From an uncultured bacterium (GTDB lineage Bacteria; Cyanobacteriota; Vampirovibrionia; Gastranaerophilales; Gastranaerophilaceae), in NCBI GenBank assembly GCA_946636615.1, contig CAMPBE010000009.1:1-37178 (forward strand): a stretch of DNA of 37,178 nucleotides. Direction: 5' to 3'. Positions 6,569 to 29,455 of the stretch are shown one piece after another. How positions within the stretch are numbered: the first letter of the stretch is position 1; the number at the start of each line of letters is the position of its first letter. A model generated the notes under the pieces. The model was not told the origin of the DNA. It did not search any database and saw only the letters and a list, made by a program, of their open reading frames with translations. The position numbers were made by a program, and so were the translations under genes.

Positions 6569-7387
6569 TTATTCTATATCATCCTTTGATGCTTGTAAAA
6601 TTAGCTCCACTTTAGAAATTTGACGTCTTAATTTACTTAATTCACGTTCTAGCGTAGATCTATCTTTTATATTTTTTCTTTCACGCATTAACTTGCTTTT
6701 TTCTCCAATTTCACCAATAGCATTTACAATAACACCTACAATGACATTCATTACAATAAATGAAGAAATTAGAATAAAAGTTATAAAATAAATCCATCCG
6801 AAAGGATTTTTTGCGCATATAGGTCTTGCAATACCCGCCGCCCAATCATCCAATGTAACCATCTGGAACAATGTTGCCATTGTTTTTCCGATTGTTCCAA
6901 AATATTCGGGGTAGCTCTCCGCATATAAAGTAGTACCCATTATTGCAAAAATATAAAATATCAATAATAAAAGCAAACAAGCCCAAAAAACATTAGGAAT
7001 TGAATCTATTATTGCCTGCACAATAAGTCTTAGTTTTTGCATTCTCGTAACAAGCCTCAATGCTCTAAGAGCCCTCAAAACTCTAAAAGCTCGGAACGAA
7101 GAGAATACGCCTCCGGTTGGAACCCATGACATTGCAACCAAAATAAAATCAAAATTATTCCAACCGTCTTTAAAAAATTTTCCACCATATACATAAAGCT
7201 TTATAATCATCTCTATAGTAAATATGATTACACATGCAAAACAAGAATGAAGAAGAAATGTTCCAATATAATTACAAATTGAAGGATATGTTAAAAGACC
7301 AAGAGCAATTGCATTGTACACAATAACAGCCAAAATAAAATTATTTGTATACTTATGCTCAATAAAAAATTTCAACTTATCCTTCAA
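6569..7387 (-). CDS. Single-domain voltage-gated cation channel (NaChBac/Nav-like family)
   Basis: This is a six-transmembrane voltage-gated channel subunit that would assemble as a tetramer in the inner membrane. Counting from the start chosen here (272 residues), S1 lies near 17-40 and S4 carries five arginines at every third position (99, 102, 105, 108 and 111, within FRAFRVLRALRALRLV). The pore loop reads TLDDWA at 178-183. S6 follows (ITFILISSFIVMNVIVGVIV), then a charged neck and a heptad-like coiled coil (LERELSKLRRQI). NaChBac and NavAb have TLESW at the pore; Asp-Asp here matches the first two changes of the engineered calcium-selective CavAb. No ATG is available near the N-terminus. 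A TTG at 7387 has GGAGAG at good spacing. The longer frame from TTG 7414 begins 2 nt from the tRNA end and is less likely. It probably shares a transcript with the tRNA. Confidence 0.9.
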   Translation of the reverse strand: MKDKLKFFIEHKYTNNFILAVIVYNAIALGLLTYPSICNYIGTFLLHSCFACVIIFTIEMIIKLYVYGGKFFKDGWNNFDFILVAMSWVPTGGVFSSFRAFRVLRALRALRLVTRMQKLRLIVQAIIDSIPNVFWACLLLLLIFYIFAIMGTTLYAESYPEYFGTIGKTMATLFQMVTLDDWAAGIARPICAKNPFGWIYFITFILISSFIVMNVIVGVIVNAIGEIGEKSKLMRERKNIKDRSTLERELSKLRRQISKVELILQASKDDIE

Positions 7388-7415
7388 AATAAAACTCTCC
7401 AAATATAAAAACAAA

Positions 7416-7486
7416 TTCCCAGAGATGGATTCGAACCACCGTTGGATGATCCAGAGTCATCAGTCCTGCCGCTAGACGATCTGGGA
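7416..7486 (-). tRNA. tRNA-Gln (anticodon CTG)
   Basis: A 71-nt cloverleaf is visible on the minus strand. The acceptor stem is TCCCAGA/TCTGGGA. The D stem is GTC/GAC around TAGCGGCAG. The anticodon stem is GATGA/TCATC with loop CTCTGGA, giving anticodon CTG. The T arm is GGTGG-TTCGAAT-CCATC. The discriminator base is A and no CCA is encoded, so tRNA nucleotidyltransferase must add it. It lies between the M48 protease gene and the channel gene, on the same strand, and no terminator separates it from the channel gene. Confidence 0.95.
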
Positions 7487-7500
7487 ATATTTTCATAACA

Positions 7501-7530
7501 ATTATAATACTAAAAAAGATATTTTTGCAA
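7501..7530 (-). promoter_or_regulatory. Promoter of tRNA-Gln (and probably the channel gene)
   Basis: On the minus strand TTGCAA (7530-7525), an 18-bp spacer and a perfect TATAAT (7506-7501) lie directly upstream of the tRNA. The predicted start is about 8 nt before the mature 5' end. Confidence 0.65.
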
Positions 7531-7541
7531 CAATCAAATTA

Positions 7542-8855
7542 TTATAAATCAGAAATTTTATTAATTTGCTCCTTTACAAATGTATTTGAATTATCAAATG
7601 AACTTGCTTTTTTAATAGCTTCTTTAGATTTATTCAAATAAGATTTGTCATTTGTTAACTCAAACATATATTCGTTTGCATATGACAAATACAGATAAGG
7701 TACAAAATCATGAGCGATTTCTGTCAGCTTTTCAAAATATTTTATCGCATTTTTCATATCACCTTTTTTGTAGCTGACATATGCTAGTCTTGTTAACTTT
7801 TGCTCGATATTTTCAATCTGATAATGCTCATTTATTGAATTATCTCTGCTTATGACAATAGAAACATGATCAGACGATTTTTTACAAGGTAAAACATTGC
7901 TTTTATATATATTATATTTTCCTTCTTCCACCCACATAGGATTAGCATAATATATATTTTCCTGAGCACTTTTCATTCTGTCATTAGCCATAGGATGAGT
8001 ACGAGTAACCAGCGTATCCAAATCCTGCAGAGTTTTCATACAATCAATTGCATATAAAGCTTTTTCAGGATCGTAACCGGCTTTTATAATCAAACTCAGC
8101 CCTTCTGAATCTGCCATATATTCCATCATACGCATTTCTTTATAATATTTAACAGAATATGCGGCAGCAGCAGAAGTTACAGCTAACTTTGCAATAGCCT
8201 GAGCTGTGTCATTATTATTCATTCGGGTTTTTGCGCCTCTGTATAAACCGATCTTATTTCTGTCCAATTCTAACTGTCTTTGATGATGTCCCAAAAGGTT
8301 ATGCGCCATTTCATGCGCTATAACAAAAGCCAAAGCATCGTCACTTGTATAAAGAGAATCATACAAAGCTGTCTGAATAACTACCAAATTTGTATCCGTT
8401 GAATATGCGTTATAATCTTCAGCCGTTTTTCTTATAGCAAAACGCCAATTTGTATATTCTAAATTATTTGCTCTGATAATTCTTTCAGCTATTCTGTATA
8501 TTTTGTAAAAATCAACAATACGGGGTTCAATATTTACAACAATACCTTTGTCAACCTTTAATGCAGATTTAATGTCTTTTTCGTAAATCTTATTATCTGC
8601 AGCTAGCTTTTTTTCATAATTCTTTTCAGAAACTACATCAATATCGGATAATTTTATAAGTTCAGGATCTTTAATTCTGCTTATATTGATTTTTTGAGAA
8701 AATGATTGAGTATAATCACCTCGATTAAGACGTTTATCAACCGTATTGTATTTTGCATTTTTCTTTGCTTCTTTAAGCTGTCTGTCCACATAAGAAGAAG
8801 CATATGTGTTCATCGGGAGCAAAAACAAAAATAAAAGCACTAATATTTTTTTCAT
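7542..8855 (-). CDS. Secreted M48-family metalloprotease with C-terminal TPR-like region (BepA-like)
   Basis: This is a zinc endopeptidase of the M48 family, probably acting on envelope proteins in the periplasm. The signal peptide is about 1-19 (ending NTYA). The zinc site is HEMAHNLLGH at 181-190, with the third ligand in EYMADSEG (Glu245), followed by HPMANDRM, the conserved family sequence. After about residue 350 there are helical repeats resembling tetratricopeptide repeats (LAYVSYKKGDMKNAIKYFEK). This order, protease then TPR, is that of BepA/YfgC, which degrades misassembled outer-membrane proteins. The length of 437 is close to that family (about 490). A Shine-Dalgarno AGGAG precedes the ATG. 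There is no partner gene alongside; it is upstream of, and co-directional with, tRNA-Gln. Confidence 0.9.
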   Translation of the reverse strand: MKKILVLLFLFLLPMNTYASSYVDRQLKEAKKNAKYNTVDKRLNRGDYTQSFSQKINISRIKDPELIKLSDIDVVSEKNYEKKLAADNKIYEKDIKSALKVDKGIVVNIEPRIVDFYKIYRIAERIIRANNLEYTNWRFAIRKTAEDYNAYSTDTNLVVIQTALYDSLYTSDDALAFVIAHEMAHNLLGHHQRQLELDRNKIGLYRGAKTRMNNNDTAQAIAKLAVTSAAAAYSVKYYKEMRMMEYMADSEGLSLIIKAGYDPEKALYAIDCMKTLQDLDTLVTRTHPMANDRMKSAQENIYYANPMWVEEGKYNIYKSNVLPCKKSSDHVSIVISRDNSINEHYQIENIEQKLTRLAYVSYKKGDMKNAIKYFEKLTEIAHDFVPYLYLSYANEYMFELTNDKSYLNKSKEAIKKASSFDNSNTFVKEQINKISDL

Positions 8856-12416: not shown

Positions 12417-13304
12417 CTATAACACCGCCTTAATAGCTTCTATCATGCCTGTCTCGTCGGCAATATTTTTCCCTGCAATATCAAAAGCCGTCCCATGTCC
12501 GGGGGAAGTTCTTATTACATCAAGCCCAATTGTCATATTAACTGTCTTATTTCCTGCTACAGTTTTTATTGGTATTAGTCCCTGATCGTGGTAGTTTGCA
12601 ATAATACAGTCATAATCAGAATATTTAATAAATAAAGTATCAGCAGGCAGAGGATTTGTTATATTAACTTTCTTTGATCTTAATTCATCAACAGCAGGTT
12701 GTAAAATTTCAATTTCTTCTATGCCCAAAATGCCGTCTTCACCTGAATGAGGATTAAACCCACACAATGCAAATTTAGGATTTTGTATATTTAATTTTTC
12801 TTCAAAAAAATCTTTTAAGTTTAAAATCTTTTTAACAACTAATTCTTTTGTTAAATTAATTTCTTTTAATGCAACATGACGTGTTAAAAGCAAAACTCTG
12901 AAATCTCCTGCCACAAATAGCATTTCTGCAAGCTGTCCATCATGTGCAAGATATTTTTGCAAAATTTCCGTCTGACCGTTAAAATTATACCCTGCTAAAT
13001 GCATCGCATTTTTTGCAACAGGCGCTGTTACAATAGCTTTTCCTTTTAATTCACAGGCCAACCTTACAGATTTAAAAGAAAACTCTCCTGCTTCTTTTGA
13101 TATTTTACCACATTCAATATCACCTGAATAAGGAACTTCTATTATCTCATAATTTTTGTTTAATCTTCCATAAAAATTTATAATCTTACGATTAGAAATT
13201 ATTGCAATTTTATCTTCAGGCAAACTCAATTCATTCAATGCCTTAATCGTAATTTCGGCACCAATACCATTAGGATCACCTGTAGTAATTAATATTTTAT
13301 CCAT
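12417..13304 (-). CDS. pdxA: PdxA-family dehydrogenase (4-phosphohydroxythreonine or 4-phosphothreonate type)
   Basis: PdxA oxidises 4-phospho-L-hydroxythreonine in pyridoxal phosphate synthesis. The PdxA2 subgroup oxidises 4-phospho-D-threonate or -erythronate to dihydroxyacetone phosphate. Visible motifs are TTGDPNGIGAEIT at the N-terminus, FNPHSGEDG, the metal/active-site ANYHDQGLIPIK, and GLDVIRTSPGHGTAFDIAGK near the C-terminus. The length is 295 residues, slightly short (E. coli 329). The ATG at 13304 overlaps the upstream DUF1537 kinase gene by 8 nt, and a TTG 21 nt upstream is a less likely start. Overlap with a DUF1537 kinase is the arrangement of the characterised threonate/erythronate catabolic pairs (DtnK-PdxA2), so a catabolic role is at least as likely as B6 synthesis; sequence alone does not settle it. 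Confidence 0.85.
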   Translation of the reverse strand: MDKILITTGDPNGIGAEITIKALNELSLPEDKIAIISNRKIINFYGRLNKNYEIIEVPYSGDIECGKISKEAGEFSFKSVRLACELKGKAIVTAPVAKNAMHLAGYNFNGQTEILQKYLAHDGQLAEMLFVAGDFRVLLLTRHVALKEINLTKELVVKKILNLKDFFEEKLNIQNPKFALCGFNPHSGEDGILGIEEIEILQPAVDELRSKKVNITNPLPADTLFIKYSDYDCIIANYHDQGLIPIKTVAGNKTVNMTIGLDVIRTSPGHGTAFDIAGKNIADETGMIEAIKAVL

Positions 13305-14619
13305 TAAGACCGCCGTGTGACTCAAAATATTTTAATATATCAATCAAAGTATTAGCACCGCCAAGATTACCAGATTTTGTAACAATCCATTGACCATTAT
13401 GATCAATAGAAAGGGCAATAGCGGACGTAACCTCATCTACAAGTTGAAGCTGGTATGCGCCTATAGCTCTACAACATTTGTAAGATGTTTCTCCACCCAA
13501 CGTAATTAATAAAGCTTCTTTCTTCTCTAAAACCCTTTTTGCCAACTCTGCTAAAAATTCAGTTATAAAATCAGCTAAATTTGCTTTTGACAATTCTGCT
13601 TTTAATGAATCATCTGAAAAGCCATCAAAATCTTTTATTAAATTTGAGGTATGAACAAGCACCGTATTGTCAAAATTCAAGTTTGAAACAATCCTATCTA
13701 CAAGTTCATCTTTAACACCACCTAAAACAGTTTTCAAATCCAAACTCAATGTTAAAACATTATCAAACTCGTCACTTTTTTCCAACGTTTCAATTTGACT
13801 CGCAGTTATTTGAGTTGCACTGCCAGATACTATAAATTTTGGAAGAGTAGCAAACGTCTTTATAATATGTTCTTCATTGTCAACATCAGAAATCCAGAAT
13901 TCACTCAAAGCTTGTGCAAAAGCTGCTGTTCCGGTTGGAAGAATTTTATTATCAGATTTTTTTATAGCAAGAGCGATTTGTTCAATATCAACAGTAGACA
14001 CTGCATCAACTACAATTAACTTTTTTCCATCATCTATAAGTTCATTTATTTTTTGTAAAATAGGCCCTGCGCCTTTCATAACAGTTTTCAATTCAATTAA
14101 ACCAACCATGTTCTGAAACTTTTCTGACAACTGATTTTCCAAAAGAGTAGGAACATGCGATTCAATAATTGGAGAATGGGGGTCCACAGCCATTTCTGTT
14201 CTTTCAATAGGAATACCCTTTAACAAATGATATCCGCCTACAGTAGTTCTCATTTCAGTTGGAAACGCAGGAACTATAACTGAAGCTTCGTAATCAGACA
14301 CAGATAAAATTCCTAAAATTTCAACTGCAATATTCCCTCTAATAGTAGAATCTATTTTTTTATAAATAAAATCAGGATTAATTTTATCCATAAACATCTT
14401 TGCAGTTCTACAGACCTTATCATATGCCAAATCTGAATCAATGTTTCTTGTTTCGGTAGAAATAGCCCAAGTCTGTGTACCTTTTACATTTACAGGTTCA
14501 ATTTCCTCAGACAATAAAATCTGAGTATTTGCTCCTTTTAAATGGAATTGAAGAGCAGTATCATTGGCACCGGTTAAATCATCGGCAATAATCCCGACTA
14601 TATTTGAATTTATAATCAT
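13297..14619 (-). CDS. DUF1537 four-carbon acid sugar kinase family protein
   Basis: The family phosphorylates C4 sugar acids (D-threonate, L-threonate, erythronate; DtnK/LtnK/EtnK/OtnK). The N-terminal domain opens with GIIADDLTGANDTALQF (about 9-25). KKIDSTIRGN follows near 86-95 as the conserved substrate-binding block. The C-terminal nucleotide-binding domain includes SGSATQITASQIE, LITLGGETSY and TKSGNLGGANTL. The length of 440 is typical. The gene overlaps ssb upstream by 4 nt (ATGA) and the pdxA-like gene downstream by 8 nt, so translation is probably coupled. The exact substrate cannot be read from the sequence. No transporter or isomerase of a threonate pathway is nearby. Confidence 0.86.
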   Translation of the reverse strand: MIINSNIVGIIADDLTGANDTALQFHLKGANTQILLSEEIEPVNVKGTQTWAISTETRNIDSDLAYDKVCRTAKMFMDKINPDFIYKKIDSTIRGNIAVEILGILSVSDYEASVIVPAFPTEMRTTVGGYHLLKGIPIERTEMAVDPHSPIIESHVPTLLENQLSEKFQNMVGLIELKTVMKGAGPILQKINELIDDGKKLIVVDAVSTVDIEQIALAIKKSDNKILPTGTAAFAQALSEFWISDVDNEEHIIKTFATLPKFIVSGSATQITASQIETLEKSDEFDNVLTLSLDLKTVLGGVKDELVDRIVSNLNFDNTVLVHTSNLIKDFDGFSDDSLKAELSKANLADFITEFLAELAKRVLEKKEALLITLGGETSYKCCRAIGAYQLQLVDEVTSAIALSIDHNGQWIVTKSGNLGGANTLIDILKYFESHGGLNG

Positions 14620-20409: not shown

Positions 20410-22986
20410 ATGAAGAAATTTTTATTATTTTTGCTGTTGTTTTATGCAAACACAGTAATTGCTGCCGATTTAAATGTATATAAATTAAATAACGGTCAAA
20501 CCGTTGTAATAAAAGAAGTTAACACAAATCCTATAGTCACAATTGACACTTGGGTAAAAACAGGTTCAATAAACGAAACTGACGAAAACAACGGAGTTTC
20601 TCATTTTCTTGAACACTTATTCTTTAAAGGTTCAACAAACCATGCACCGGGAGAATTTGATAAAATTTTAGAAACTAAAGGTGCAATAACAAATGCAGCA
20701 ACAAGTAAAGATTTCACACATTATTACATCACAATTCCATCAAAAGATTTTGACTTAGCTATGGAAATGCACGCTGACATGCTCCTACATCCTCTCATAC
20801 CAAGGAAAGAATTGGAAAAAGAACGAAAAGTTGTAATTGAAGAAATTATGAAAGATGCCAATTCTCCAAATACAATTGTTTACGACAATCTTGTAAAAAT
20901 GTTATACACAACTCACCCATATCACAGAAAAGTTATCGGAACTGCTGACATTGTTAGTACAATACATAGAGATAAAATTCTTGAATACTACAACAAATAT
21001 TACACACCTTCAAACATGATAACTGTAGTTATAGGTGACATTGATTCTAAAACCGCATTAGAAAAGATATCAAAAGAATTTGGCGGAGAATATAAAAAAA
21101 CTATTCAAAATTCATATCCTAAGGAAAAACTTTTAACTTCTCAAGCCAAGACAGTAACAAACTTTGACACACAATCAGGATATATGCTAATCGGTTTCAG
21201 AGGGGTAAAAATAGATGCCAACGATTCTTATGCTCTTGACGTATTATCAACCATATTGGGAGAAGGGAAATCCTCTGTATTTTATAAAAATTTGAAAGAA
21301 AATAAACAACTTGCAAATTCTATAGGTTCTGCTAACACCGGTTTTAGAGATGATGGTATTTTCTATATCTCTGCAACATTCGATCCTGACAAATGCAAAA
21401 TGCTTCAAGATGCAATTTTTGAGGAAATAAAACACATTCAAAAACACGGAGTTACCCAAGAGCAACTTCAACTTGCAAAAAACATCATTGAACGTGACAC
21501 ATACTACGAAAGAGAATCTATTTCAAATATCGCAGGAGAAATAGGCTACACATTCGTAACAACTAATGGCATAAAATTCTATAACAATTACCTTACTAAC
21601 ATCAAAAAAGTTTCACTCTGCGATGTAAAAAGAGTAGCAAACAAATACCTAGGCGTAGAAAAAAGTGCAGTATCCATTGTTTTACCAATGAATGCAAAAG
21701 AAATTGAAGTATCACACATATCAAAAAGCAAATCAGAACCAGCCAAATTAATTTCAGAAAATACAAATACACAAAAATATGAATTATCAAACGGAGCAAC
21801 TCTTTTACTAACTCCAAATAAAGTTAATGACATTGTTGCTATCAGTATATTTGCAAAAGGCGGTGAATTTGTTGAGCCAATAGCCGGAACTGCAAAATTG
21901 ACTGCTTCAACAATGTTAAGAGGGACAAAAAAATACTCAACACAAGATTTTGCCAAAGAACTTGAGGACAACGGCATAAAAATTTCACCGTCAGTAAAAC
22001 CCGATGCCTTTACAATTACAGTACTCACTACTAAAAATGAATATGACAAAACTTTAGAATTACTTGATGAGATTATTAATAATGCAACCTTATCAGATTA
22101 TGAAACAGAAAAAAGTAAGAAAGACATTTTAAACTCTATAAAAAAAAGCAAGGATATACCTATAAATGTCGCATCTGATAATTTTAAAACTCTTATATTT
22201 GAGGGTACACCATACTCAATTTCATCCCAAATAATTGAAAAGAATTTACCTAAAATATCACAATCTGATATTTATAACTATTACAACAAAATATTCGAAC
22301 CAAAAAATATAGTAATATCAATAAACGGTAATGTTGATAAAGAAAAAACATTATCAGAATTTACAAAAATATTTCAATACAAAAAAGGTTCGACATTTGA
22401 TTATTCTAAATATTCAATACAGCCTTTAAAAACAAGAAAAATTTCTTCAAAGAACATAAAAGATTTAAAAACAGATTGGATAATAATGGGCTGGCAAACC
22501 CCAGGGGTACTCAACAAAAAAGATTATGCAACACTACAAGTTATAGATTCAATACTTGGTACAGGTATGAGTTCAAGGTTATTTAAAAATTTGAGGGATA
22601 AAGATGGGCTTGCATACCAATTAGGTTCTCAATACTCCGCAAATATATTGAAAGGCTCATTTATCGTATATATAGGTACAAATCCTGAAAATCTTGAATT
22701 TGCAAAAACAAGATTAAAAGAAGAAGTTTTTAGATTAAAAACAGAATTTGTAGGCTCAAAAGAATTGCAAGAAGCTAAGGACAAACTTCTAGGCAACTAC
22801 ATTATAGGGCAAGAAACAAACTTAGACAAAGCTACAACTATAGGCTGGTTTGAAACAACAGGGCGCGGATACGGATTTGATAAAGAATATATTAATCTTA
22901 TCAATTCTGTCACAGATTCGGATATTATAGAAACTGCCAATAAATATTTTACTGAAAATTACGTACTTTCTGTAGTGGTACCATAA
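20410..22986 (+). CDS. Secreted M16-family zinc peptidase, two-unit form
   Basis: This is a pitrilysin-type metallopeptidase of the envelope. The 858-residue protein has a signal peptide at about 1-18 (ending NTVIA). The first M16 unit carries the inverted zinc motif HFLEH (His65, Glu68, His69), with the distal Glu in VVIEEIMKD (about 144-145), so it should be active. A second M16-like unit begins near 450 (YELSNGATLLLTPNKV); at the motif position it reads TAKLTASTM, with no zinc ligands, so it is an inactive partner lobe. This order is that of PqqL-like and other two-unit peptidases. The Shine-Dalgarno GAGAGAGGG is strong. A second, divergent M16 peptidase lies at 26636-29455. Confidence 0.92.
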   Translation: MKKFLLFLLLFYANTVIAADLNVYKLNNGQTVVIKEVNTNPIVTIDTWVKTGSINETDENNGVSHFLEHLFFKGSTNHAPGEFDKILETKGAITNAATSKDFTHYYITIPSKDFDLAMEMHADMLLHPLIPRKELEKERKVVIEEIMKDANSPNTIVYDNLVKMLYTTHPYHRKVIGTADIVSTIHRDKILEYYNKYYTPSNMITVVIGDIDSKTALEKISKEFGGEYKKTIQNSYPKEKLLTSQAKTVTNFDTQSGYMLIGFRGVKIDANDSYALDVLSTILGEGKSSVFYKNLKENKQLANSIGSANTGFRDDGIFYISATFDPDKCKMLQDAIFEEIKHIQKHGVTQEQLQLAKNIIERDTYYERESISNIAGEIGYTFVTTNGIKFYNNYLTNIKKVSLCDVKRVANKYLGVEKSAVSIVLPMNAKEIEVSHISKSKSEPAKLISENTNTQKYELSNGATLLLTPNKVNDIVAISIFAKGGEFVEPIAGTAKLTASTMLRGTKKYSTQDFAKELEDNGIKISPSVKPDAFTITVLTTKNEYDKTLELLDEIINNATLSDYETEKSKKDILNSIKKSKDIPINVASDNFKTLIFEGTPYSISSQIIEKNLPKISQSDIYNYYNKIFEPKNIVISINGNVDKEKTLSEFTKIFQYKKGSTFDYSKYSIQPLKTRKISSKNIKDLKTDWIIMGWQTPGVLNKKDYATLQVIDSILGTGMSSRLFKNLRDKDGLAYQLGSQYSANILKGSFIVYIGTNPENLEFAKTRLKEEVFRLKTEFVGSKELQEAKDKLLGNYIIGQETNLDKATTIGWFETTGRGYGFDKEYINLINSVTDSDIIETANKYFTENYVLSVVVP

Positions 22987-26252: not shown

Positions 26253-26639
26253 ATGAAAAATTTTGTATTTGTTTTTTGTTTTTTATTGGGTATTATTTTA
26301 TCTGCAGGTATTGTTTTGGCTAAAACGACTTACAATGTAAAAGTTCCGCTACCTGGAGTTTCAAAAGCGAACGTTCAATTGCAGACAGATGCAATATTGT
26401 CCGTATACACTGCCGCTTCAATTAAAGTTCCAAATTGCAACAAATTCTCAATATACGACACTGCCATTCTAAAACAGCCACACGATTTAATAAAAAAAGA
26501 TGGTAAACTTGTTTCCGGTTTTTGGGAAGAACAATGGGCTGTAAAAGCATGCGGACAAAATGTGTACGTTCCTATTGAATTTATTATAGAACATGATGGA
26601 ACAACATTCGTTATAGAAAATTCAAAAGTGCATTTCTAA
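26253..26639 (+). CDS. Small secreted hypothetical protein
   Basis: I do not recognise this 128-residue protein. The signal peptide is about 1-23 (hydrophobic core FVFVFCFLLGIILSAGIVLA). The mature part of about 105 residues is predicted beta-rich and contains two cysteines (VPNCNK and KACGQN) that could form a disulfide, plus FIIEHDGTTFVIENSK at the end. AAGGAATTGG precedes the ATG. Its TAA shares two bases with the stop codon of the convergent M16 gene, so the two genes interlock tail to tail. Confidence 0.75.
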   Translation: MKNFVFVFCFLLGIILSAGIVLAKTTYNVKVPLPGVSKANVQLQTDAILSVYTAASIKVPNCNKFSIYDTAILKQPHDLIKKDGKLVSGFWEEQWAVKACGQNVYVPIEFIIEHDGTTFVIENSKVHF

Positions 26640-29455
26640 AATTTTAAACTATTCAAATAATTTTCGTTAGCTTTTAAGGTATCTTCCGTTGCTAAAATCG
26701 AATAGGTTGGTTTTGTTGAGAAAATATAATTTGCAGTATTATAAATATCATCAACTGTAATTTTATCAATCTCATCCAGCATCATATTTGTTCCATATAT
26801 ACCATATGGACTTTCTACAGTTTTGAGCAAATTTAAGATTTTATTTGATGCAGAGTGATTGTCATTTAAGATTGAGTTTTTTAAGGCTTTCTTTGCATTT
26901 TCCAATTCTTCTTCCGTAACCTTTTCAGTCATCATTAACTTTACATGTTTGTTAAAACCATCAATTGATTTTTTAACATTATCAAAATGCTGTTCACCCG
27001 TTTCCTTATTATCAGTTGTCGTTCCAATCTTCAATGTTAGTAAGCCAATATCATCCGTTTTAGAATAATTTGAACGAACATGGTACGCCAATTTTTCTTT
27101 TTCCCTCAAATCCATAAACAAACGAGACGATGGATTTCCGCCTAAAATTATATTCATCAAACGTATAGAAACAGTATCTTTTAAATTTCCATTAATTTTA
27201 AATTTATAAGCTTTAACTATTTCAGCCTGATTTTTATAATCAGTATCAGTCAAAACCTTTACCACTTCAACGTCTTTGTACTTATTCTGAGTTTCGCTTG
27301 TTCTAAATGGTTTTACCGAAGCAAAAGAAGACATCTCATTAAACAATACACTTTTCAATTCAGGTTTTCTTTCAAAAGGTGCAGCTACAGAAATAACACC
27401 TTTACCGTTTTTCATAATATCTGAATATAAATTTTTAACATCATCCAGAGTTAATTCTTTCAAGCCCTTCAAAAGTTCTTCTTTTGAATAGCCTCTAGGC
27501 AAATCTTTGAAAAGTTCGGAATCAAGTTTATCAAACGCTGATTTTTCAGAAGTTTCAATTGAATCCTTAATACGACTTTTAGCCTGTTCAAAATCTTCTT
27601 GAGTAAATCTAGGATTATTTATAATTTCCTTAATATTTTCCAGACCTTTTGCAAAAGATTCCACATCACAACCCATTGCACAAGAAACACTTCTTGATTT
27701 CGCCGACAAACCTTTTACAATACCGTCTTTTGCAAGTTCCGAATCCATTTCTTCTTGTTTTTTAAACAGAGAGCCCTCATTAAGTAATTCACTTAACACT
27801 AGACTTGTTGACGGTTTTGCAGATGTATATCCATCAATATCGACTCTATACAATATTTCAATATTATCTGTTTTAGACTCAGTTGTAATTATTCTATAAT
27901 TATTTGCAGCATTATACTCTTTTACCTTAGAAATATTTATTGCTTCTTTTAAAGCAGCACCTGTGAAAGAAACAGCTTTATAATTTTTATTAATAGAATC
28001 TGCTGTCGCAGAAGAAGGATGAACAACGGCCACAGAAGCTTTATTTGTATTGTAATATTTTTTAGCAGCTTCAACCAAATCATCAGGTGTCATTTCATTT
28101 ACTATTTTTTCATAATTGTTCAAATACGCCTGATTGTTTTCGAGTATGGAAGTTCCTATTGCATCATTTGTTGCATAAGAATCTTCCAACACATTTGCAA
28201 ACGATTTTAGCATTGTTTTCTTAATTATTTGCATTTCCTTTTCCGTCGGTGGATTATTAGCTACATTTCCGATTTCATTAAACATAGCTTTCAGAACTTT
28301 TTCAGAATTTTCTTCGGTAGATTCTGCCATAAATATTAAAGTTCTGCCGTCATCAGGATTAGAGCTAACTTTTTCTTCTTCAGCTATAGATGTTGCATTT
28401 AGAGGTTTTAGACTTGTTGTAATTCTAGCTGATGGTGCTAAAGATAATAAGGTTGAAATAGCTTCGGAATATATTCTGTCCTTTGTATCCGAAGATTTAG
28501 GGCCATTAAATCCTATAACAATTGTTGAAGCAGTTGCTTTATCCGAAATAATATCTTCTCTTACCTGCTTGTCAGTAGGTTTAAATGTTTCAAAATGCCT
28601 GTTTGTCGACGGCTGTTTTCTTGATGAAAAATATTTTGATATAAGTTTTATAGTTTCATCAGGTTTTACGTCACCTGTGACAACTGTCACCATATTTGAC
28701 GGATAATAGTTATTGTTGTAATAATTTACAACATCTTCTCTTGTCAAATTAGTTATATTGTCTGTCGTACCTCCAATCATATCAGCTGAAGTCGTTTTTA
28801 TATTGTACAAATTTTTCAACATTTTATTTATAGCAATATTTTGGGGATCAGCTGTAATCATATTAATTTCGGAATTTACAATTCCTTTTTCTTTTTCAAG
28901 CTTTTCTGCAGCAAACAAGGGCGACTCAATCATAGAGGAATGTAATTTTATTTTATTTTCCAGATCTGATTCATCTAAAAGATTAGAACTAATATAATAA
29001 TTTGTCTCCGCAAATCCTGTAGATGCATTGGTTGATGCCCCCATTTTATTGACCTGTTTAAAGAAATCTCCTTCTTCCAAGCCTTTTGAACCATTAAACA
29101 GATTATGTTCAATATAATGACTTATCCCTCTAATACAATCGGGCTCATTCATAGAACCTGTATTTACATAAGTTCTTAAAACTGTTTCACCATCTTGAGG
29201 CACTATTACGACTCTTTGTCCGTTTGCTAATTTATAACAATATGCCTTTGTGTCATAGGGAAAATCAATCTCACCTGTTTTTGAATAAGGCATAGGAGTT
29301 TTTACAGCAAAATCGGGTTTTGCATCATTTAATTGCTCAATTTGAGGATTTGTTTGATTAACAGAGCCTTTAAATGAGGTCTTTTTTGCTAATGGAACAT
29401 AATTATTTACACTATTAATAAAACCTACATTAAACACGTATATATAAAAACACAA
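26636..29455 (-). CDS. M16-family zinc peptidase without recognisable signal peptide
   Basis: This is a pitrilysin-type peptidase of 939 residues in the longest frame. The zinc motif HYIEH is at 113-117 with the distal Glu in IVNSEINMI, so the first unit should be active. At least one further M16 unit follows (ILGGNPSSRLFMDLREKEKL is typical of the C-terminal lobe), without zinc ligands. The first 55 residues are unusual: no signal peptide, then VPLAKKTSFKG and an Asn/Gln-rich stretch, a pattern I associate with Gastranaerophilales proteins. No ATG exists before Met54. The start must be TTG 29455, GTG 29437 or a rarer codon; none has a good Shine-Dalgarno. It is about 80 residues longer than the other M16 protein here, and the sequences clearly diverge. 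Confidence 0.85.
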   Translation of the reverse strand: MCFYIYVFNVGFINSVNNYVPLAKKTSFKGSVNQTNPQIEQLNDAKPDFAVKTPMPYSKTGEIDFPYDTKAYCYKLANGQRVVIVPQDGETVLRTYVNTGSMNEPDCIRGISHYIEHNLFNGSKGLEEGDFFKQVNKMGASTNASTGFAETNYYISSNLLDESDLENKIKLHSSMIESPLFAAEKLEKEKGIVNSEINMITADPQNIAINKMLKNLYNIKTTSADMIGGTTDNITNLTREDVVNYYNNNYYPSNMVTVVTGDVKPDETIKLISKYFSSRKQPSTNRHFETFKPTDKQVREDIISDKATASTIVIGFNGPKSSDTKDRIYSEAISTLLSLAPSARITTSLKPLNATSIAEEEKVSSNPDDGRTLIFMAESTEENSEKVLKAMFNEIGNVANNPPTEKEMQIIKKTMLKSFANVLEDSYATNDAIGTSILENNQAYLNNYEKIVNEMTPDDLVEAAKKYYNTNKASVAVVHPSSATADSINKNYKAVSFTGAALKEAINISKVKEYNAANNYRIITTESKTDNIEILYRVDIDGYTSAKPSTSLVLSELLNEGSLFKKQEEMDSELAKDGIVKGLSAKSRSVSCAMGCDVESFAKGLENIKEIINNPRFTQEDFEQAKSRIKDSIETSEKSAFDKLDSELFKDLPRGYSKEELLKGLKELTLDDVKNLYSDIMKNGKGVISVAAPFERKPELKSVLFNEMSSFASVKPFRTSETQNKYKDVEVVKVLTDTDYKNQAEIVKAYKFKINGNLKDTVSIRLMNIILGGNPSSRLFMDLREKEKLAYHVRSNYSKTDDIGLLTLKIGTTTDNKETGEQHFDNVKKSIDGFNKHVKLMMTEKVTEEELENAKKALKNSILNDNHSASNKILNLLKTVESPYGIYGTNMMLDEIDKITVDDIYNTANYIFSTKPTYSILATEDTLKANENYLNSLKF

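Follow-up and report, generated by a model that had tools for sequence, protein, structure and literature searches.

A native LDDW selectivity filter in a canonical bacterial voltage-gated channel from an uncultured relative of gut Melainabacteria

How four-fold pores select between Na+ and Ca2+ is a classic problem, which has so far been answered mostly with designed mutants. NavAb and NavMs, the closest described channels, are single-domain six-helix proteins with arginines in S4, a P1-filter-P2 pore and the filter TLESWSM. Engineering of NavAb has yielded the calcium-selective CavAb, which has Asp at positions 3 and 4 of the filter, and the intermediates 4mw3, the solved NavAb mutant with exactly TLDDWSM, 4mvu (TLEDWSM), and 4ms2 (TLDDWSN). 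On canonical backbones, Asp at position 4 is the principal means of shifting the selectivity to calcium: the substitution S178D alone is reported to raise the permeability of NavAb to Ca over Na about 100-fold (PMC10120453). Met181 of NavAb helps to exclude divalents, and the M181A mutant has a PCa/PNa of about 0.36-0.47 (PMC12919392). In the case of NavMs, almost no change is tolerated at S181 or M182 (PMC4972137), and some natural-looking filters may therefore not conduct. Filters other than TLESW also occur in native bacterial channels, namely CavMr and NavPp of the AnclNav group, as well as NsvBa of Bacillus alcalophilus, a canonical BacNav with the filter TLDSWGS, in which the natural replacement of Glu by Asp at position 3 allows divalents to pass and the channel is non-selective (PMC4225499). 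The CatSper1 subunit of sperm carries Asp at both filter positions (PMC10120453).

The DNA analyzed here (the window) is a stretch of 37,178 nucleotides from an uncultured bacterium, in the genome of which the channel gene is present as a single copy. The features of the locus are listed in Table 1. The earlier note had read a native TLDDWA motif at 6839-6856 in the pore loop of a bacterial voltage-gated channel, and this reading was borne out: the codons 6856-6839 of the minus strand are ACA TTG GAT GAT TGG GCG, followed by GCG GGT (A, G), and they lie between the predicted helices P1 and P2 of an intact frame carrying an Ion_trans domain (Pfam, E = 6e-46), the top single-chain PDB matches of which are CavAb and NavAb. 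The longest frame begins at 7414, where it abuts the tRNA-Gln gene at 7415-7487. The TTG at 7387-7385 is the likely start, since GGAGAG occurs seven bases before it and it is in register with the Met-(Lys/Arg) starts of the orthologues; the residues are numbered from this codon.

Table 1. Features of the channel locus in the window, and filters of the channels in the same genus
Feature	Position	Strand	Basis
Voltage-gated channel gene, 272 aa	6569..7387	(-)	Pfam Ion_trans and best single-chain PDB matches
Channel start TTG (likely)	7387-7385	(-)	orthologue alignment and SD
Channel stop	6569-6571	(-)	
GGAGAG, putative ribosome-binding site (likely)	7395..7400	(-)	sequence
Voltage-sensor S1-S3, with F56, E59 (S2), D80 (S3)	7127..7354	(-)	model and alignment
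S4 arginines R99, R102, R105, R108, R111	7055..7093	(-)	alignment; fully or almost invariant
Pore helix P1, residues 166-177	6857..6892	(-)	AlphaFold model, pLDDT about 96
Selectivity filter T178-L-D180-D181-W-A183	6839..6856	(-)	translation; motif kept in L019
A184, next after filter	6836-6838	(-)	translation
Pore helix P2, residues 182-193	6809..6844	(-)	AlphaFold model
S6 pore-lining helix, residues ~197-225	6713..6799	(-)	model; S6 end placed by eye
C-terminal helix, possible neck and coiled coil	6575..6712	(-)	one continuous helix in single-chain model
tRNA-Gln (CTG)	7415..7487	(-)	ARAGORN; 27 bases before channel start
Promoter-like TTGCAA-18-TATAAT, before tRNA	7501..7530	(-)	consensus match only; not much above shuffle mean
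Genus filter TLDDWAAG (window and G193)			
Genus filter SLDDWATE (G194)			
Genus filter TLDGWATD (G212)			
Genus filter TLEAWPD or TLEAWAD, one residue shorter (G211, G208, G213)			

The AlphaFold2 model, obtained with 48 aligned sequences as the input (mean pLDDT 89.8), shows the helices S1-S6, P1 and P2, with the filter between the latter two, and S6 continues into a long C-terminal helix. In the structural comparisons performed with Foldseek and VIA-align, the top places are taken by NavAb and CavAb entries, with a Z of about 20, an rmsd of about 2.5 A for 219-221 residues and an identity of 41-43% (with NavAb, about 41% over the model); the chain 7eeb_C of the CatSper complex is also among the matches, with about 19% identity. 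Apart from the filter motif, the features expected of canonical BacNavs are present: a single Ion_trans domain with S1-S6 and P1-filter-P2, repeated RxxR motifs in S4, and the charge-transfer residues in S2/S3, where F56, E59 and D80 are invariant or nearly so in the alignment. The S4 helix was previously noted for its five arginines, which are indeed present at three-residue spacing, and five in register is a difference from NavAb and NavMs, but they are common to all the relatives in the family; since these relatives have the same residues, the voltage sensor is an ordinary one.

In the channel tree, which was built without the filter columns, the window channel groups with the TLESW channels, apart from the AnclNav-like channels at 100/100; the AnclNav side consists here of two cyanobacterial channels (L157 and L158) judged to be AnclNav-like by their filter and Cys loop, CavMr itself being outside the tree. 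By its sequence, this placement and the model, the window channel belongs to the canonical BacNav (NavAb/NaChBac) clade and not to the CavMr/AnclNav group, as far as the latter is represented by L157 and L158. It also differs from CavMr and NavPp in lacking the Gly4 and Asp7 of the CavMr/AnclNav type, in place of which it has Asp4 and Ala7, and the Cys-bearing extension that follows P2 in both cyanobacterial sequences. The filters of these two read TLEGWTD and TLEGWQD, which, with the Cys-bearing loop after the filter, makes them CavMr-like. The typical TLESW motif of the clade is replaced by TLDDW. As the name sodium channel would call for Na+ selectivity, which is a matter for electrophysiology, we file the window channel under the canonical BacNavs without naming it a sodium channel.

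The filter TLDDWAA shares Asp at positions 3 and 4 with CavAb and the engineered 4mw3 and 4ms2, and likewise with CatSper1, another one-domain channel, which differs in being part of a eukaryotic heteromer with accessory subunits. NsvBa has the same natural change at position 3, but unlike the window channel has no Asp at position 4. At position 7, where CavAb-type filters carry an acidic residue or Asn, the window channel has Ala; its filter thus holds two of the three Asp residues of CavAb, and Ala where NavAb has Met. The CavAb series was engineered, whereas the window filter is natural and has Ala7 as against their Asp, Asn or Met and Ala6 as against their Ser. The earlier note had pointed to Ala at the third of the positions changed in CavAb; this Ala is not neutral, since M181A alone raises PCa/PNa in NavAb.

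By analogy with the engineered channels, four identical subunits would assemble into a voltage-gated cation channel of the NavAb/NaChBac type, which depolarisation would open via the S4 arginines. The two Asp residues would form rings at the filter mouth, one at the high-field-strength site and the other directly above, with a charge of about -8, and along with the loss of the Met helping to exclude divalents, this arrangement would let Ca2+ enter, either in preference to Na+ or together with it. Since Asp4, Asp3 and Ala7 each shift known channels toward Ca2+, all three point to Ca2+ entry, and we consider it likely that the channel is Ca-permeable, whether mixed or Ca-preferring. At the mixed end, this reading overlaps with that of a non-selective voltage-gated channel for Na+, K+ and Ca2+, similar to NsvBa and used not for the entry of calcium but for depolarisation or ion balance, which we judge to be unlikely when defined as K+-permeable and not Ca-preferring. 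The fact that NaChBac with LEDWAS is non-selective (PMC4972137), that NsvBa with LDDWAD still passes monovalents (PMC4225499), that NavAb M181A loses monovalent selectivity (PMC12919392), and that the E to D change at position 3 of NaChBac also lowers Na+ selectivity would be consistent with a non-selective pore. NavAb with Asp at 3 and 4 nevertheless falls within the Ca-selective series, and Asp at position 4 is listed as always Ca-selective (PMC10120453).

A strictly sodium-selective channel, in which Ca2+ would act only as a blocker despite the Asp rings, is a still less probable explanation. Its model is NavPp, which has Asp at position 4 on another backbone, prefers Na+ and is inhibited by Ca2+ (PMC7041947). 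CaCA exchangers (PF01699) were found neither in the window's genome nor in the sampled relatives, except for one in G288, and the P-ATPase domain Cation_ATPase_C (PF00689) was detected in none of 18 genomes including the window's. The absence of these two exporter families fits a sodium-only channel and counts against classical Ca2+ signalling, other exporters being possible. The backbone of NavPp differs, however, and on canonical backbones, to which that of the window channel belongs, Asp4 and Asp3 move the selectivity toward Ca2+. The Ca-permeable reading keeps our preference. The channels of this family raise the question of the role of voltage-gated Ca2+ or mixed cation entry for a gut bacterium.

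The gene was identified in eight of the 33 genomes of the genus and in 19 of the 383 genomes sampled from the family, to which this channel type is restricted in the class and phylum samples. The close relatives for which names are available comprise uncultured Candidatus Melainabacteria and assemblies from rumen or gut, in agreement with the gut-living relative of cyanobacteria that had been proposed. Outside the genus but within the family, 10 of 11 orthologues have TLESWSM, the exception being TLEGWPD (L028, found again as L035), whereas within the genus TLESW is absent from all seven filters that could be read (Table 1); the channel of an eighth genome, G209, stops at the contig end ahead of the filter, and the search for its missing half yielded no second piece. 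TLESW in close relatives, which the earlier note had named as evidence for a local variant, is thus found only in other genera, and both Asp residues are kept in the nearest relatives, G193 and G194. The scan outside the family covered the best 80 matches, so that more distant LDDW channels are possible; from a collection of 84,980 species, the 70 channels of bacteria outside the family that matched best were retrieved, none of which had Asp at position 3 or 4, and four TLEGW filters were the only departures from Glu-Ser at these positions. TLEGW filters are found within the canonical tree in L040, L095, L097, and L098 (Coriobacteriales, alphaproteobacteria, and Bacteroidota). The filter of L028/L035 (G379, rumen assembly RUG11158), TLEGWPD-I, is one residue shorter, yet belongs to a canonical BacNav; it comes very near both to TLEGWVD of CavMr and to domain I of Cav3, and resembles the former more than the window filter does.

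The nearest relative, G193, has a protein 79% identical to that of the window (dN 0.16, dN/dS about 0.1, with a dS of about 1.55 that is near saturation). TLDDWAAG is common to both, five of its eight codons differing by synonymous substitutions, and since the motif is kept at this identity despite the synonymous differences, more than chance is involved: judging from these sequences, the window filter is a maintained feature and not a sequencing slip. It is very improbable that the gene is decaying, with its filter drifting while the genus loses the channel: the patchy presence in the genus and the differences between the filters of its species would agree with decay, but the frames are intact, the voltage-sensor and S6 residues are invariant, and the TLEAW clade likewise shows a dN of about 0.07 as against a dS of about 1.15. 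The source is a draft genome of 83 contigs, but an assembly or binning artefact is scarcely credible, given that the independent rumen assembly RUG11825 has the same filter and gene order, that the filter codons differ by at least six base changes from those of a TLESWSM orthologue (L002), and that the neighbouring polA groups within the genus.

The channels of the family form one group (92/90) within the canonical BacNavs, where TLESWSM predominates and the altered filters are scattered over several places. As the groups were named after the sequences had been seen, the AU p values are indicative only: a single origin of all the non-TLESW filters in the family was rejected (p = 0.009), that of the three LDDW channels was not (p = 0.22), and monophyly of the genus in the channel tree was rejected (p = 0.003). 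The tree of DNA polymerase I recovers the genus as a single clade (100/100), in which the LDDW genomes and G209 group together (89/91). Part of the channel tree is therefore likely to reflect transfer between genera. The rejection of a single origin indicates that gut Melainabacteria have repeatedly altered the sodium-type filter; LDDW probably had one origin in the window's subclade, where the common TLESWSM was changed to TLDDWAA, other species changing the filter differently. It is a tentative and somewhat doubtful proposal that natural evolution in this genus has repeatedly made the canonical BacNav calcium-selective, by the LDDW route of engineers and by the CavMr and eukaryotic Cav routes (Gly4, acid at 7 or 8); if true, no native calcium channel of the canonical BacNav family would have preceded these. 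No description of Melainabacteria channels or of a natural LDDW canonical BacNav was found in the literature searched, subscription papers being outside the search. Channels of this kind are already known; to the extent tested, the novelty lies in the natural LDDW filter and in the series of changes that the filter has undergone within a single genus. It has been stated that the combination of Gly4 and a polar or acidic residue at position 7 is not observed in canonical BacNavs (PMC7041947), and the filters of this family run counter to this statement. The close natural orthologues, which share 58-79% identity with the window channel, have retained the backbone and the voltage sensor but vary in the filter (TLESWSM, TLDDWAA, SLDDWAT, TLDGWAT, TLEAW[P/A]D, and TLEGWPD), so that the acid-ring and 'beacon' rules can be put to a direct test in natural backbones.

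The locus order secD-dapA-M48-tRNA-Gln-channel-SLH is identical in the window and G193. ARAGORN placed a tRNA-Gln gene beside the channel of G193 and that of G209 as well, and the tRNA promoter is possibly shared with the channel, judging from the promoter-like sequence. The same tRNA-Gln is located upstream of the channels L029 and L051. A conserved operon partner was rejected: the neighbours vary by genome (ThiF, M48, BrkB-like, epimerase, M16, SIMPL, and holin-like genes), and because of these differences no function can be drawn from the context. A viral carrier was also rejected, as no relative was found in the IMG/VR contigs. The M48 peptidase gene adjoining the channel in the window (7542-8855) is present in six of the eight genus genomes with the channel and in none of the nine without it (17 tested), although it is not always adjacent. 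Elsewhere in the window, two large M16 peptidase genes encoding 858 and 939 aa (20410-22986 and 26636-29455) lie within 4 kb of each other, and a PdxA-like gene stands beside an SBD_N/NBD_C (DUF1537-type) kinase gene (12417-14619), a pair familiar from the breakdown of four-carbon sugar acids.
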